Shown: one piece after another, positions 4,254-29,187 of the stretch
Position numbering within the stretch: position 1 is the stretch's first letter
Layout: every line of letters begins with the position of its first letter
Assembly (NCBI RefSeq): GCF_900109465.1
Contig: NZ_FOAZ01000032.1
Span: 1 to 64,000, forward strand
DNA: 64,000 nt
Origin: Streptacidiphilus jiangxiensis
GTDB lineage: Bacteria; Actinomycetota; Actinomycetes; Streptomycetales; Streptomycetaceae
Reading direction: 5' to 3'
Notes under the pieces: model-generated
Told to the model about the DNA's origin: nothing
Seen by the model: the letters and a program-made list of their open reading frames with translations, nothing else
Databases searched by the model: none
Program-made: the position numbers and the translations under genes

Positions 4254-4291
4254 GTCGGAGCAACCTTTCGGGCCACCAGCGGCAACAAGGG
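4254..4291 (+). promoter_or_regulatory. ECF-sigma-like promoter element upstream of first GH5 gene
   Basis: GTCGG, then CAACCTTTCGG, then 8 nt, then GCGGCAAC. The same pattern recurs at 26765-26798. CAACCT at 4261-4266 and GGCAAC at 4281-4286 are spaced like the -35 and -10 boxes of ECF sigma promoters. The GGCAAC box ends exactly 42 nt before the ATG at 4328, the same distance as in the second copy. Function is inferred. Confidence 0.5.
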
Positions 4292-4327
4292 GACGGATCA
4301 AGTTCGTTCGTCACGAAGGACTGAGAG

Positions 4328-6088
4328 ATGAAGGCAACTCGCCAGGCCGCACGGCACCGTCGTGGCAGGCTCGGGCTGATGGTGGGGACCCCGGTGGCGC
4401 TGATCGCCGCCGGTGGGCTCGTCTACGGCTCCGCGTCGGGTGCGACCACGGGCGGAGCGCCCGGCCAGGCGCCCTCGGCGGTGGCCCACGCGCGGTCGGG
4501 CGCGATGGCGGCCGTGGCCGCGATGCAGCCCGGCTGGAACCTGGGGAACAGCCTGGACGCCATCCCGGCCGAGACCTCGTGGGGCAATCCGGTGGTCGCC
4601 AAGGCGCAACTGGACGCGATCCGCGCGCAGGGCTTCCGCAGCATCCGCATCCCGGTCACCTGGAGCGGCCACCAGGGCTCCGCCCCCGGCTGGACCATCG
4701 ATCCGGCCTACGTCGCCCGGATCAAGCAGGTGGTGAACTGGGCCCTGGCGGACGGCTTCTACGTGGTGCTCAACGTCCACCACGACTCCTGGCAGTGGAT
4801 CGCCGGCATGCCCGCTGACCACGACGGAGTCCTGGCCCGCTACGACGCCACCTGGACGCAGCTCGCCGCGCAGTTCCGCGACGAGTCGGACCACCTGGTC
4901 TTCGAAAGCGTCAACGAGCCCACGTTCACGAACGCGTCGGACGCCCAGAAGGCCGCGCTGCTCGACGAGTTGAACACCTCCTTCCACCGGATCGTGCGCG
5001 CGTCGGGCGGAGCGAACGCGACGCGCCTGCTGGTGCTGCCGACCATCGGCGACACGCCGAGCCAGTCGCTGATGAACGACCTGGCGACCACGATCGCCTC
5101 GCTCCATGACGACCGGATCATCGCGAGCCTGCACTACTACGGCTACTGGCCGTTCAGCTCCTCCAACGCCGGTGTGGACCGGTTCGACGCCGCGAGTCTG
5201 CAGGACATGACGGCCGTCTTCACGCGCATGCACGACACGTTCGTCGCCAAGGGCATCCCCCTCATCCTCGGCGAGTACGGGCTGCTCAGCTACCCCGACA
5301 TCAACCACCCGGACGTGGTCGAACGCGGCGAGGCGCTGAAGTACTTCGAGGAGATCGGCCACCAGGAGCGGATCAACGGCATCACCGGCTTCCTGTGGGA
5401 CAACGGCGCCTACCTGGACCGCACCACGCTGCGCTGGCGGGACCCGGGCCTGTTCGCGGAGATCAAGGACGGCTGGACGACCCGCTCCGGCACGGCCTCC
5501 AGCGACCAGGTCTTCGTCCCGGCGTCGGAGCCCGTCACCGCCCGCACCCTGACGCTCAACCCGAACGGGACCGCCTTCCGCGGCCTGTTCGAGGGCCGTA
5601 CGGCGCTGGTCCAGGGACGCGACTACACGCTGGCCGACAGTCGCCTCACCCTCACCCCGGCCTTGCTCGCCCGCCTGACGGCACACCACGGCTACGGAGT
5701 CGCCGCCACCCTGACGGCCCGGTTCTCGGCGGGGGCGGCGTGGCAGATCCGTGTCGTCTCCTCCGCGACGCCCGTGCTATCCGGCGCCTCGGGCAGCACC
5801 AGTGGGCTCACCGTCCCGGCGCAGTTCCGCGGTGACGTGCTGGCGACGGTGAAGGCCCACTACTCCGATGGCAGCAACGCCGGCCCGAACAACTGGACGC
5901 CGTTCCTGGGCTTCGACACCGACGTCGTCCCCGACTCCGCGCATCACACCCTGACCCTGTCGTCCGAATTCTTCCAGGGGATCAAACAGGGTGCACAGGT
6001 CACCCTCACCGTCCGCTTCTGGAGCGGCGCGACCGTGACCTACCACGTGACGGCGTGGGGCAGCTCCGTCACCGGCACCGCCTCCTGA
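4328..6088 (+). CDS. Secreted GH5 (subfamily 4-like) endo-glucanase / xyloglucanase
   Basis: A 586-residue secreted GH5 enzyme that should cut beta-1,4-glucan backbones such as xyloglucan. A basic N-terminus and a hydrophobic segment (about 15-38) form the signal. The catalytic domain spans about 55-385 with [16 protein letters not shown], the acid/base Glu197 in ESVNEP and the nucleophile Glu316 in LGEYG. Two beta-rich modules follow (about 395-480, CBM_X2/Ig-like, and 490-586, ending in [19 protein letters not shown]46-like), the layout known from GH5_4 enzymes such as Bacillus Cel5B. It is a clear paralogue of the gene at 24975. Its 3' end overlaps the convergent GH95 gene by 49 bp. Subfamily and substrate are inferred. 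Confidence 0.9.
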
Positions 6089-24974: not shown

Positions 24975-26723
24975 ATGACGCACCACCTGCCCGTGGCACG
25001 CCACCGCGCACGCGGGGCGAGCCTGGCCGCGACCGCCGCTCTGCTCCTGTTGGCCCCGGCCACGATCGGCGGCACGGCCTTCGCCGTCGACAGCACGGCC
25101 CCCACAACCCCCACCGACGCGACCCCGATGGTCCACAACCGGGCCATGGACACCGTCGCGCGGATGCAGCCCAGCTGGAACATGGGCAACAGCCTGGACG
25201 CCATCCCCGACGAGACCTCCTGGGGCAACCCGCCCGCGACCAAGGCGCTGTTCGACTACATCAAGTCGCAGGGCTTCCGCAGCGTCCGCATCCCCGTCGC
25301 CTGGAGCAACGGCCAGTCGGCGACCGCCCCGTACACCATCGACCCGACCTACCTGGCCCGGGTCAAGCAGGTCGTCGACTACGCCCTGGCCGACGGCCTG
25401 TACGTGGACATGAACGTCCACCACGACTCCTGGCAGTGGATCACCAACATGCCCACCCAGCACGACCAGGTGCTGGCCCGGTTCGACGCGACCTGGACGC
25501 AGCTCGCGGAGACCTTCCGCAACGAGTCGGACCGGCTGCTCTTCGAGAGCGTCAACGAGCCCGGCTTCACGGGCGCCACCGGCGACGCCCAGAAGATGTC
25601 GCTGCTGGACGAGTTGAACAACTCCTTCCACAGCATCGTGCGCCGGTCGGGCGGCGGGAACGCCACCCGCCTGCTCATCCTTCCGCCCGTCGGCTCCAGC
25701 CCGGACCAGACCTCCATGGAGCATCTGGCCGCCGACATGGCGACGCTGAACGACCCCGACCTGGTCGCCACCGTGCACTACTACAGCTTCTGGCCGTTCA
25801 GCGTGAACATCGCGGGCTACACCACCTTCAATGCCCAGACGCAGCAGGACCTCACCGACGCCTTCAACCGGATGCGGGACATCTTCACCTCCAAGGGCAT
25901 CCCCGTGTACCTCGGCGAGTACGGACTGCTGAGCGAGCCCGACTCCGGCATCGTCGAGCGCGGCGAAATGCTCAAGTACTTCCAGGAGGTGGCCTATCAG
26001 GCGCGCCTCGACCACGTGACCACCGCGCTGTGGGACGACGGCAACTTCCTGGACCGCAACGCGCTGCAGTGGCGCGACCCGGCCCTGTTCTCCTGGATCA
26101 AGTCGAGCTACCACACCGAGTCCGGCACCGCCTCCACCGACCAGGTCTTCGTCTCGAAGTCCGGTCCCGTCAGCGCCCAGACGCTCACGCTGAACCTCAA
26201 CGGGACGGATTTCCTCAGCATCTGGCAGGACGACACCCGCCTGGTCCGTGGCCGGGACTACGCCGTCTCCGGCAACCAGCTCACCCTGACCGCGGCCGAA
26301 CTCGCGAAGTTGACCGGCACGGGGGCGTACGGCGTCAACTCCACCCTCCAGGTCCACTTCTCCCGGGGCCTGCCCTGGCAGATTCAGGTGATCACCAACG
26401 ACACGCCGGCGCTCTCGGGCGCGACCGGCACCAGCGACTCCCTCGCCATCCCCACCCAGTTCCACGGCGACCGGATCGCCACCATGGAGGCCTCCTACGC
26501 CGACGGCACCGGCGCCGGCCCCGCCTCCTGGACCACCTACCAGGAGTTCGGCACCGCCTTCTCCCCCGACTACACGGGCGGCGCACTGACCCTCACCTCC
26601 GCGTTCCTGACCTCGCTCAAGGACGGCGCGCCGGTGACGCTCACCTTCCACTTCTGGAGCGGCACCAGCGATACCTACCACCTGACCAAGTCCGGGACCT
26701 CGGTCACCGGCACCTCCTCCTGA
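24975..26723 (+). CDS. Secreted GH5 (subfamily 4-like) endo-glucanase / xyloglucanase, second copy
   Basis: A 582-residue paralogue of the protein at 4328, alike over its full length. Signal peptide about 1-37 (LLLLAPATIGGTAFA). Catalytic domain about 50-385 with NMGNSLD, MNVHHDSW, acid/base Glu195 in ESVNEP and nucleophile Glu315 in LGEYG. The same two C-terminal beta modules end in WSGTSDTYHL. Unlike the first copy it sits inside the LacI-controlled operon, 38 bp after GH43, and lacks the upstream promoter element. Two differently regulated copies of one activity are thus likely. A terminator follows at 26741. Confidence 0.9.
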   Translation: MTHHLPVARHRARGASLAATAALLLLAPATIGGTAFAVDSTAPTTPTDATPMVHNRAMDTVARMQPSWNMGNSLDAIPDETSWGNPPATKALFDYIKSQGFRSVRIPVAWSNGQSATAPYTIDPTYLARVKQVVDYALADGLYVDMNVHHDSWQWITNMPTQHDQVLARFDATWTQLAETFRNESDRLLFESVNEPGFTGATGDAQKMSLLDELNNSFHSIVRRSGGGNATRLLILPPVGSSPDQTSMEHLAADMATLNDPDLVATVHYYSFWPFSVNIAGYTTFNAQTQQDLTDAFNRMRDIFTSKGIPVYLGEYGLLSEPDSGIVERGEMLKYFQEVAYQARLDHVTTALWDDGNFLDRNALQWRDPALFSWIKSSYHTESGTASTDQVFVSKSGPVSAQTLTLNLNGTDFLSIWQDDTRLVRGRDYAVSGNQLTLTAAELAKLTGTGAYGVNSTLQVHFSRGLPWQIQVITNDTPALSGATGTSDSLAIPTQFHGDRIATMEASYADGTGAGPASWTTYQEFGTAFSPDYTGGALTLTSAFLTSLKDGAPVTLTFHFWSGTSDTYHLTKSGTSVTGTSS

Positions 26724-26740: not shown

Positions 26741-26764
26741 CCCGCGCGAAAAACCTCGCGCGGG
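26741..26764 (+). terminator. Terminator of the GH42-GH43-GH5 operon
   Basis: CCCGCGCGA at 26741-26749 pairs perfectly with TCGCGCGGG at 26756-26764 around a short A-rich loop, 18 nt after the GH5 stop. Confidence 0.8.
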
Positions 26765-26798
26765 TCGGCAACCTTTCCGCGCCCGGCGGCAACGAAGC
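26765..26798 (+). promoter_or_regulatory. ECF-sigma-like promoter element upstream of expansin gene
   Basis: GTCGGCAACCTTTCCG, then 8 nt, then GCGGCAACGAAG. It matches the element at 4254-4291 over both boxes. CAACCT is at 26769-26774 and GGCAAC at 26788-26793, ending 42 nt before the ATG at 26835. Spacing between boxes is 13 nt here and 14 nt in the other copy. Confidence 0.5.
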
Positions 26799-26834
26799 GG
26801 TGGTAACACCGACTCGACAGGGGCGAACGAACGG

Positions 26835-27800
26835 ATGGGCATGAGGGGAACGAGGCGCGCCGCGCCGCATTCACGACACGGACGCGAGCAGGGACGCGGG
26901 TTGACCACGGGCGTTCCGGCCGCGTTGCTGGCGGTCGGGGTGCTGACCTGCCTGGTGCTGGCCTTCCTGCCGGACGGCGGTCCCACCGACGCAGGGCGTG
27001 CCCTCGCGGCCGCCCGGACGGGCGCCCTGCCCGGCACCGCACCGGTGGCCGCTTCCGGTGCCGCCGGGGCGGTGGCCTCGTCGTCGCTGCCGCCGCACAC
27101 CGGAACCGCCTCGGCGTCGGTGTCCTCACCCCACTCGGCGACCGGCGGCGCCGCTTCGCTCGCCGGGTCGGCGGTGGCGCCCCTGGCCGGGCGGATCAAG
27201 CCCGGCGTCGCCTACCACGGCGTCGCCACCGCCTACGCCGCTGCGGACGGCAACGGCGCGTGCCTGTTCGGGCCGACCAGTGACCTGATGGTCGCGGCCA
27301 TGAACTACACCGACTACGAGTCGTCCAAGGCCTGCGGGGACTACGTGCTCGTGCACGCCGCCAACGGCGCCTCGCTGACGGTGCGGATCGTGAACGAGTG
27401 CCCCCTGCCCTGCGCGCCCGGCCAACTCGACCTGAGTCAGCAGGCGTTCGCGCGCCTCGCCGACCTCAGGGTCGGCCGTCTGCCGATCACCTGGACGCTG
27501 CTGAGCCCCGCCTCGCTCGGCCCGCTCTCCCTGCGGTACAAGACCGGCTCCACCCAGTGGTGGTGCGCGATCCAGGTGATCGGTCACCGGAACCCGGTCG
27601 CCCTGCTGGAGGTCCGGACGGCGGGCGGCTGGCGTCGGCTCCCACGCACCGACTACGACTACTTCGTCTCCGCCGACGGCAGCGGCTGCGGCGGGCCGGT
27701 CAGGATCACCGACATCTACGGCCAGCAGCTGACCGTCGACGGGATCGCGCTGCGGCCGGATGTCGCGCAGCCGACCGGCGTCCAGTTCGCCCGGCATTGA
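26835..27800 (+). CDS. Secreted expansin-like protein (DPBB plus CBM63)
   Basis: A 321-residue protein resembling bacterial expansins such as EXLX1. A basic N-terminus and a hydrophobic segment (about 25-46) form a signal or membrane anchor, then an Ala/Ser/Pro linker to about 120. The double-psi beta-barrel (about 123-212) starts GVATAYAAADGNGACLFG and contains Asp199 in GQLDLS, the position needed in expansins. The C-terminal CBM63 (about 218-315) has WWCAIQVIGH and aromatic residues typical of the cellulose-binding face. Expansins loosen cellulose/xyloglucan contacts without hydrolysis. It follows the xyloglucan operon and precedes an ECF sigma gene. Confidence 0.9.
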   Translation: MGMRGTRRAAPHSRHGREQGRGLTTGVPAALLAVGVLTCLVLAFLPDGGPTDAGRALAAARTGALPGTAPVAASGAAGAVASSSLPPHTGTASASVSSPHSATGGAASLAGSAVAPLAGRIKPGVAYHGVATAYAAADGNGACLFGPTSDLMVAAMNYTDYESSKACGDYVLVHAANGASLTVRIVNECPLPCAPGQLDLSQQAFARLADLRVGRLPITWTLLSPASLGPLSLRYKTGSTQWWCAIQVIGHRNPVALLEVRTAGGWRRLPRTDYDYFVSADGSGCGGPVRITDIYGQQLTVDGIALRPDVAQPTGVQFARH

Positions 27801-27856
27801 CCGGGCAGCCATCCAGCCGCCCGGTCTCGTTGACGACCGCTGCTACCCTCACGCGT

Positions 27857-27870
27857 TGTTAACGCGCACA
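27857..27870. promoter_or_regulatory. LacI-operator-like sequence upstream of ECF sigma gene
   Basis: TGTTAACGCGCACA, 26 nt before the sigma start, differs by one base from TGTTAACGCTCACA inside the GH127 gene (34982). The central CG and TGT/ACA ends are LacI-like, but the arms pair at only four of seven positions. Also part of the imperfect stem GCGTT-GTT-AACGC. Confidence 0.3.
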
Positions 27871-27895: not shown

Positions 27896-28426
27896 ATGCT
27901 CCCCGACGACGCGTCCGCAGAGTTCCACGACTTCTTCGAACGCCACTACGCCGAACTGGCGCGCTTCGCCCACCTGCTGACCGGCGAGGCGGATGCGGCC
28001 GACGACCTGGCCGCCGACGCCCTGGTCACGCTCTGGCAGAACTGGGACCGACTCCGCGCGGCCGAGCACCCGCGCGCCTACGCGCGCGGCGTGGTGGCCA
28101 ACATGGCCCGCGAACGGGTTCGGAGCACGGTCCGGGAGCGCCGGCGGATCACGCTCTTCTGGTCCCGCGTCCCGGAGCGGACGGAAGGACCCGACGTGGC
28201 CGCCGTGCTCGACGTGCGCACCGCGCTGACGCGGCTGCCGTTCCGCAGACGGGCCTGCGTCGTGCTGCGGCACGCCTTCGACCTGTCGGAGAAGGACACC
28301 GCGATGGCGCTCGGCATATCGGTCGGTACGGTCAAGAGCCAGACCTCGAAGGGGCTGGCCGAGCTGGAACGCATACTCGGCGTACGATCCGCCGAGGTGT
28401 TGGTGGCAGGGAGGAGGGTTTCGTGA
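27896..28426 (+). CDS. ECF RNA polymerase sigma factor (SigE-family type)
   Basis: A 176-residue group 4 sigma factor. Region 2 (about 13-78) includes FFERHYAELARFAHLLTG and DDLAADALVTLWQNW; region 4 (about 108-165) includes LTRLPFRRRACVVLRHAF and GISVGTVKSQTSKGLAEL for -35 recognition. The stop overlaps the start of the next gene by 4 bp (28423-28426), the usual arrangement of a sigma factor with its anti-sigma partner. It lies 96 bp after the expansin gene and may recognise the CAACCT/GGCAAC elements at 4261 and 26769 (inference). Confidence 0.92.
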   Translation: MLPDDASAEFHDFFERHYAELARFAHLLTGEADAADDLAADALVTLWQNWDRLRAAEHPRAYARGVVANMARERVRSTVRERRRITLFWSRVPERTEGPDVAAVLDVRTALTRLPFRRRACVVLRHAFDLSEKDTAMALGISVGTVKSQTSKGLAELERILGVRSAEVLVAGRRVS

Positions 28427-29187
28427 GCGAGGAGATCAAGCGGCAGCTGCGCGAGTCCGCCCGGGTCTACCAGCCGGACCGCGCGAGGATGCTGGCCCGC
28501 GCGGAGCGCGGCCTGGCCGGTCCCGTCGTCCGTCACCGCACCCGTTCCTTCACCAGGTCGGGCCCGCGGACCGTCCTCGCCGGGCTGGCCACGGCGGGCC
28601 TGCTGGCGACCGGCGGCTTCGCCGTCGCCGACATCGTGCACGGCCCGTCGCCGTCGACCACCGTCACCACGCCCACCGAATCGCCGTCGCCCATGCCCCG
28701 CCCGACACCCTCGGATTCCGCCACCACCCCCGCGACGCCGTCGACCGCGGCCGGGGGCGGGCATCAGCCTCAGCCCACCGGTCCGCGGCCCGCGGCCGGA
28801 CCGCTCTGGTCGGCAGGCTCGGTGGACCCGCACAGCACCGTCTACTGGTCGCAGAGCGACTTCGTCCTGCGGACCAAGCAGCCGCTCACCTCGCTCACGC
28901 TGGAGCTGCGCGTCGCGCAGACCGGCGGCGTGCAGAGCACGGGCAGCTGGCGCACCCTGCCGGTCGACGAGTTCACCGTCACCGTGCGGGAGGTCGGCGG
29001 CGCGCTGGTCTACCGCTGGGTGCTCAAACCCGGCCTGACCGTGCCAGCCGGGCAGTACGAGTTCGCCGCCCAGTTCAACCACTCCGTCGGCGTGCGTGAC
29101 GCGGGCGGCGACGGCTACCGGGTGGACGTGCGGACCTCGGCCGGTTCCCCGGTGGCGGTCTGGGGCGGGTTCCTGCCGGCCCGGTAG
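28423..29187 (+). CDS. Single-pass membrane protein, candidate anti-sigma factor with extracellular sensor domain
   Basis: A 254-residue protein. Residues 1-46 are polar, helical and cytoplasmic (IKRQLRESARVYQPDRARML); a membrane helix follows at about 48-70; then a Thr/Ser/Pro linker (about 74-126) and a beta-rich extracellular domain (about 127-254) with many aromatic and Thr residues. There is no HxxxCxxC zinc motif, so it is not a ZAS-type anti-sigma. Overlap with the sigma gene and the topology support a sigma-regulator role by analogy with RsgI proteins of cellulolytic clostridia, which sense polysaccharide outside the cell. I do not recognise the extracellular domain family. GGGAGGAGGG precedes the GTG. 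Confidence 0.65.
   Translation: MSEEIKRQLRESARVYQPDRARMLARAERGLAGPVVRHRTRSFTRSGPRTVLAGLATAGLLATGGFAVADIVHGPSPSTTVTTPTESPSPMPRPTPSDSATTPATPSTAAGGGHQPQPTGPRPAAGPLWSAGSVDPHSTVYWSQSDFVLRTKQPLTSLTLELRVAQTGGVQSTGSWRTLPVDEFTVTVREVGGALVYRWVLKPGLTVPAGQYEFAAQFNHSVGVRDAGGDGYRVDVRTSAGSPVAVWGGFLPAR

Follow-up and report, generated by a model that had tools for sequence, protein, structure and literature searches.

The window analysed here, a 64,000-nt stretch of the Streptacidiphilus jiangxiensis genome, contains a short repeat at two places (Table 1). Site 1 precedes a gene coding for a secreted GH5 protein with CBM_X2 and CBM46 domains, and site 2 precedes a cluster of three genes encoding an expansin, an ECF sigma factor and a putative membrane anti-sigma. 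The sigma factor matches TIGR02983 with 163.4 bits (cut-off 141.55) and contains Sigma70_r2 and r4_2, such that the criterion for membership of the family is satisfied, and there is an overlap of 4 nt between the sigma stop codon and the partner gene. The closest structure to the GH5 protein is 4v2x, a GH5-CBM_X2-CBM46 endoglucanase, and the xyloglucanase activity assigned to it by an earlier reading made from the sequence alone (the sequence-only reading) is plausible, although it has not been shown. A second GH5-CBM_X2-CBM46 gene (24975-26723), 56% identical to the first, is located just 5′ of the expansin gene and lacks the motif.

Table 1. Features of the two motif-bearing regions of the window (all on the forward strand).
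Feature	Coordinates	Strand	Details
Site 1, putative variant ECF promoter	4258..4286	+	GAGCAACC (-35-like) ... GCGGCAAC (-10-like), inner spacer 9 nt
Secreted GH5 with CBM_X2 and CBM46, predicted target gene 1	4328..6088	+	
A/T-rich block AAAAACC	26749..26755	+	12-19 nt 5′ of the -35-like box; UP-element-like (inferred)
Site 2, putative canonical ECF promoter	26766..26793	+	CGGCAACCTTTCCG-N4-CGGCGGCAAC; ~48 of a possible 53.5 bits
Secreted expansin, EXLX1 family, predicted target gene 2 and first in the sigma cluster	26835..27800	+	NF041144, E 8.7e-71
Extended -10-like sequence	27841..27849	+	TGCTACCCT; directly 5′ of the sigma gene
ECF sigma factor, TIGR02983 SigE-like	27896..28426	+	176 aa, regions 2 and 4
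Putative membrane anti-sigma	28423..29187	+	~45 aa inside, one TM helix, P/T/S linker, extracellular domain
Extracellular nine-strand beta-sandwich, proposed sensor	28798..29184	+	AF2 pLDDT 93

On the plus strand, the core of site 1 (CAACCTTTCGGGCCACCAGCGGCAAC) occupies 4261-4286 and that of site 2 (CAACCTTTCCGCGCCCGGCGGCAAC) occupies 26769-26793. Both include CAACCTTTC followed by GCGGCAAC, the inner spacer being 1 nt longer at site 1 (9 nt) than at site 2 (8 nt). The sequence-only reading had reported the repeat at 4254-4291 and 26765-26798, with its GGCAAC box ending exactly 42 nt before each start codon and unrelated DNA in between. The repeat is indeed present at both, the leaders are unrelated, and the distance to the annotated ATG is 42 nt in each case (4286 to 4328, and 26793 to 26835), although this is not a general rule, as other sites span 38-118 nt; an ATG at 26841 is also a possible start for the expansin. 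The GTCGG that had been included in the shared box does not belong to it, as it is out of register between the sites (GTCGG-AG-CAACC at site 1, GTCGG-CAACC at site 2), and at site 2 it begins at 26764 rather than 26765.

The repeat occurs far more often than expected by chance. The pattern CAACCTTTC-N7-11-GCGGCAAC is found twice in the 9.5-Mb genome, both times within the window, and the reversed control is not found at all. Across 14 Streptacidiphilus genomes there are 11 matches to the same pattern versus a single control match, all 11 being in four of the 14, and a close form of the motif has 36 matches in 28 genomes versus one for the reversed control among 394 Streptomycetaceae genomes. 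The sequence-only reading had proposed a genome-wide scan with a looser pattern and a test for secreted CAZymes downstream. Taken as CAACCT-N12-15-GGCAAC, this pattern has 15 matches versus five in the organism's own genome, with TTTC present only in the two window sites; run family-wide, the motif scan does find secreted CAZymes downstream. A relaxed pattern, GGCAACC-N13-16-CGGCVAC, is at background level in the same genome (18 matches versus 19 for the control), and further targets there thus cannot be claimed from a relaxed search. Conversely, a strict Streptomyces-type pattern with GGCGAC yields only two matches and misses L283, L285 and L292. The shortened form CAACCTTTC-N6-11-GGCAAC lacked the length needed to be informative against viral contigs and was set aside.

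The consensus derived from 34 distinct sites is CGGCAACCTTTCSG-N4-CGGCGGCAAC-YRRGGRGYGRA, which includes columns outside of the search pattern. The sites also share an upstream block in which the A/T fraction is 0.59 at -18 to -13, as compared to about 0.3 around it, and no TANNNT is present downstream in the 34 sites (20-nt windows tested, 26-100 nt), so the element is unlike an activator site ahead of a sigma-70 promoter. Taken together, the consensus, the A/T-rich block and the lack of a downstream sigma-70 -10 sequence are best read as an ECF promoter itself. If the transcription start is placed at the conserved YG step, box 1 falls at -35 and box 2 at approximately -15 to -9. The AAC-containing -35 sequence at a fixed distance from the -10 that is expected of ECF promoters is present (CGGCAACC), but the usual CGTC-type -10, which is not required of all groups, is not, the box being CGGCGGCAAC or GGCCAC/GGCGAC. 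ECF -10 sequences are usually of the CGTC type, and a GGCAAC-like -10 differs from these, which counts against the promoter reading.

The strong conservation of the element and its location 38-118 nt from start codons could also reflect a riboswitch or other RNA leader controlling the genes from the 5′ UTR. However, the element has no Rfam match, only two short boxes at a fixed spacing are conserved and the sequence of the spacer between them is not, the leaders have no sequence in common, and the conservation reaches upstream into the A/T-rich block; we see hardly any room for this explanation.

The motif is closely associated with the sigma gene. A homologue of the sigma factor (E 1e-40 or better) is present in all 28 genomes containing the motif versus 218 of the 394 overall (hypergeometric P 2.8e-8), and 14 of the 36 exact sites are no more than 5 kb from the sigma gene where about 0.05 would be expected, with some others located far from it in the genome. 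With a matrix built from the exact sites, the 60 sigma regions retrieved and the window together give 92 matches, as compared to 0.2 with permuted matrices and two with the reversed matrix. Of 80 named homologous sigma loci, gathered by sigma homology alone, 75 contain a site scoring 20 bits or more within about 4 kb (none with the reversed matrix). No such site is present at any of 23 loci belonging to sigma paralogues of greater distance, although the paralogue loci are shorter (79 kb in all versus 653 kb). These linkage probabilities overstate independence owing to relatedness among the species and the overlap of some loci with other sets. The positive loci include representatives of Kribbella, Kibdelosporangium, Lentzea and Amycolatopsis, suggesting that the unit has been transferred as a whole.

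A single dedicated sigma factor of soil actinobacteria very probably uses the two boxes as its promoters, a conclusion reached from comparative sequence data and without transcript, footprint or binding data. Points that do not favor it, besides the atypical -10, are the distance of some sites from the sigma gene and the presence of only two sites in the organism's own genome. A further one is that the GGCAAC boxes form a near-identical direct repeat 21 bp apart (two helical turns), which could also be bound by a dimeric activator, and the element would then be the operator of a transcription factor (activator or repressor) with the sigma gene merely among its targets. A LacI-type regulator is encoded in seven of 61 sigma regions, but no single transcription factor gene is shared by the majority of them, in contrast to the sigma gene that accompanies the motif in all 28 motif genomes. 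The sites are oriented towards their own genes, lack a sigma-70 -10 downstream, and vary more in one box than in the other: the CGGCAACC core of box 1 is nearly invariant (with TTTC variable), whereas box 2 drifts among CGGCGGCAAC, GGCCAC and GACCAC, and is GGCGAC ahead of PL3-like pectate lyase genes (L292, L293) that lie beside a Streptomyces-type sigma of 75-79% identity. Such asymmetric drift fits -35 and -10 sequences, and the 1-nt variation in the inner spacing (8 or 9 nt) is typical of promoters. We therefore give the operator interpretation little credence and favor recognition by the sigma factor.

Outside of the window, nearly all of the exact sites are 38-118 nt 5′ of an open reading frame with a signal-peptide-like start. 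The exceptions (L134 and L136) lack an intact downstream frame, and the start of the frame at L136 looks like a remnant of a GH74-like protein. Pfam matches place the target proteins among the rhamnogalacturonan lyases (PL4 and PL11) and pectate lyases (PL1 and PL3, and a PL9-like helix), with further matches to GH10 and the alginate lyase family; one target is a fusion of pectate lyase and pectinesterase, and one ricin-lectin protein has no known function. A ricin-lectin target with BNR repeats is read as GH74-like, and expansins are also among the targets. By family, the targets are mostly pectin and hemicellulose enzymes. There are about ten families in all, and they are mutually unrelated. 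The proposal of the sequence-only reading that the sigma factor encoded at 27896 reads the promoters of both the GH5 and expansin genes is thus supported by comparative data, through the co-occurrence in 28 of 28 genomes, the contrast between 75 of 80 and 0 of 23 loci, the physical linkage, the position of the motif at the sigma operon, and the spread of target families. The motif-bearing ricin-lectin genes at L124, L125, L141 and L148 (past position 1525, on the motif strand) code for secreted proteins with a conserved C-terminal region that has no Pfam match, and which possibly represents a new enzyme family.

Site 1 is a weaker variant, scoring 29 bits (with the +1 spacer) versus 48 bits for site 2, and its membership of the regulon is consequently less certain. 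Its likeness to site 2 might be fortuitous, with only site 2 belonging to the sigma regulon, as GAGCAACC replaces CGGCAACC, its inner spacer measures 9 nt, and a more distant GH5 homologue (61% identical, in genome G003) has no site. Against this, the pattern is expected by chance only about 0.003 times per genome (one control match in 394 genomes), and the orthologous GH5 gene in S. pinicola (L301) is preceded by both boxes (GAGCAACCTT...GCGGCAAC) with the same 9-nt spacing and at the same distance, even though the spacer sequence has diverged. Other sites with the 9-nt spacing precede a PL11 gene (L150) and a gene coding for a secreted GH74-like protein of 912 aa (L359). A chance resemblance is therefore unlikely, and we retain site 1 as a probable member of the regulon.

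The majority of regions have the motif at the head of an expansin-sigma-anti-sigma cluster, and where the expansin gene is elsewhere or absent (L248, L273, L282, L284, L286 and L385) the motif is still found roughly 150-330 nt 5′ of the sigma gene. In S. neutrinimicus (L243) the expansin gene is mostly deleted and the promoter and sigma gene are kept, with a spacing in the same range. The sigma operon thus appears to be autoregulated from its own promoter, although this is supported only by position and conservation, and there are no transcription data. The extended -10-like sequence immediately ahead of the sigma gene conforms to TGnTAnnnT, a pattern shared by 70 of the 77 leaders of homologous sigma genes, and is probably a second, basal promoter. 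Just 3′ of it is a conserved GTTGTTAACGCGCACA (27855-27870), represented in Streptomyces by GTTGTTAAACGCGCAACCAACGCGCACAT, which is possibly an operator or leader element. A hairpin (CCGGGC-N12-GCCCGG, 27801-27824) is located immediately 3′ of the expansin stop codon and before the sigma gene, and may attenuate read-through from site 2.

The sigma partner has no Pfam or NCBIfam match, and no recognised anti-sigma domain (zf-HC2, RskA or RsgI) was found in it; nor does Pfam identify an RsgI N-terminal domain, a CBM or a known sensor ectodomain. Its TM segment and ectodomain are nevertheless conserved in 60 loci, satisfying the criterion of an adjacent, single-TM anti-sigma (co-transcription has not been measured), and it appears to hold the sigma factor, although this is an inference in the absence of binding or genetic data. 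The best-conserved part of the partner in these 60 loci is the outer domain of ~128 residues, a conserved extracellular domain without a Pfam family that AlphaFold models as a beta-sandwich. The top Foldseek matches of this domain include Cellulomonas fimi CBM2 and CBM3a, but also integrin, cohesin and toxin domains, and VIA Z scores of 10-12 are obtained alike for pilins, adhesins, cohesins and adaptor subunits. The fold is common to many Ig-like domains that do not bind sugars, and it does not settle the ligand. A profile search of the anti-sigma against solved structures returned only TrwE, a weak match (E 0.03) aligning just the TM and linker stretch, which was rejected as a structural match.

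The same outer domain is present on two kinase-like membrane proteins (L418, 1370-3715; L419, 1151-3082), in which PF07714 scores just above the cut-off, and in one membrane protein where it is followed by a C-terminal CBM2 (L420, 2190-3401). Because it is placed externally on different signalling proteins, it is most likely a sensor. It may sense plant polysaccharide, but this is inferred, and no ligand has been shown.

These observations suggest a small, self-controlled ECF regulon for plant cell wall breakdown. The predicted promoter would consist of a -35 CGGCAACC(TTTC), 15-16 nt, and a -10 CGGCGGCAAC (with GGCCAC, GACCAC and GGCGAC as variants), with the A/T-rich block just 5′, and transcription would start about 8 nt past the -10 at a YR step, the exact position being inferred only. 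At rest, the extended -10 promoter would supply low levels of the sigma factor and its membrane partner, and the partner would hold the sigma. Binding of a ligand at the outer beta-sandwich, with plant polysaccharides or their fragments as the likeliest candidates, would release the sigma factor, which would then recognise the element and transcribe the expansin-sigma-anti-sigma cluster from site 2, providing positive feedback, and the GH5 gene from site 1. We assign a probability of roughly 0.86 to the part of this model that joins promoter, sigma factor and targets, as the comparative data give good support to the motif, its linkage to the sigma gene, the set of targets, the autoregulatory position and the domain structure. 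The sensing part is evenly balanced, as the holding of the sigma factor, the ligand and the release step are inferred only.

Insoluble plant polymers are unable to enter the cell, and their sensing by streptomycetes is known mainly through sugar-binding repressors that act on small sugars. The sigma-I/RsgI systems that control cellulosome genes in Clostridium thermocellum are autoregulated. They are similar to the system described here in combining an alternative sigma factor and a membrane anti-sigma with an extracellular domain in the control of plant-cell-wall enzymes (PMC10766802), but differ in that here the sigma is a small TIGR02983 ECF factor, the promoter sequence is different, and no ligand has been shown. 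The sigma factor belongs to the same sequence family as the TIGR02983 SigE-like actinobacterial ECF sigmas, and the searchable literature yielded neither a regulon nor a promoter for the clade; likewise, nothing relevant was found on the motif, or on an actinobacterial ECF regulon with an expansin or pectate lyase. In ECF52 and ECF53 (e.g. SCO4117), an extracellular domain is suspected to see carbohydrate, and the anti-sigma, TM and carbohydrate domains are fused to the sigma, whereas here the partner is encoded by a separate gene (PMC5826349, PMC10766802). The long C-terminal extension of the ECF52/ECF53 type, with TM and carbohydrate-binding parts, is absent, as the sigma ends at 176 aa. The motif reported for SCO4117 is CSGYN-17-SRHA, and it has been linked to differentiation (PMC5826349, PMC10766802); a review of hemicellulase regulation describes carbohydrate domains on actinobacterial ECF proteins as predicted and untested (PMC10766802).

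More broadly, a previously undescribed class of sensor domain, carried by anti-sigmas and by kinase-like and CBM2-bearing membrane proteins, may read plant cell-wall polysaccharide and, through an ECF sigma whose -10 is of an unusual GGCAAC type, run a pectin and xyloglucan regulon across the Streptomycetaceae and in Kribbella, Lentzea, Amycolatopsis and relatives, probably spread by horizontal transfer. This is tentative, and we place it slightly below even odds. As comparative evidence joins the promoter and sigma factor to the partner and to a compact group of enzymes for pectin and xyloglucan, the question of sensing is directly testable in a laboratory Streptomyces or Streptacidiphilus, and the promoter-sigma pair has a possible use in enzyme production.

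Several Streptacidiphilus genomes (L168, and also L167, L169, L178, L190 and L191) encode a sigma paralogue that is 62% identical and has the same type of partner. At L168 there is a related element, GGGCAACCTTTCCC-GTCT-CCCGGACCAC, which scores 11.5 bits, so a sister promoter may serve the paralogue. In S. neutrinimicus (G007, contig C151, 52255-53613), fragments of a second sigma gene and outer domain lie some 1 kb away from a motif with one mismatch, and probably correspond to a decaying second copy of the system.
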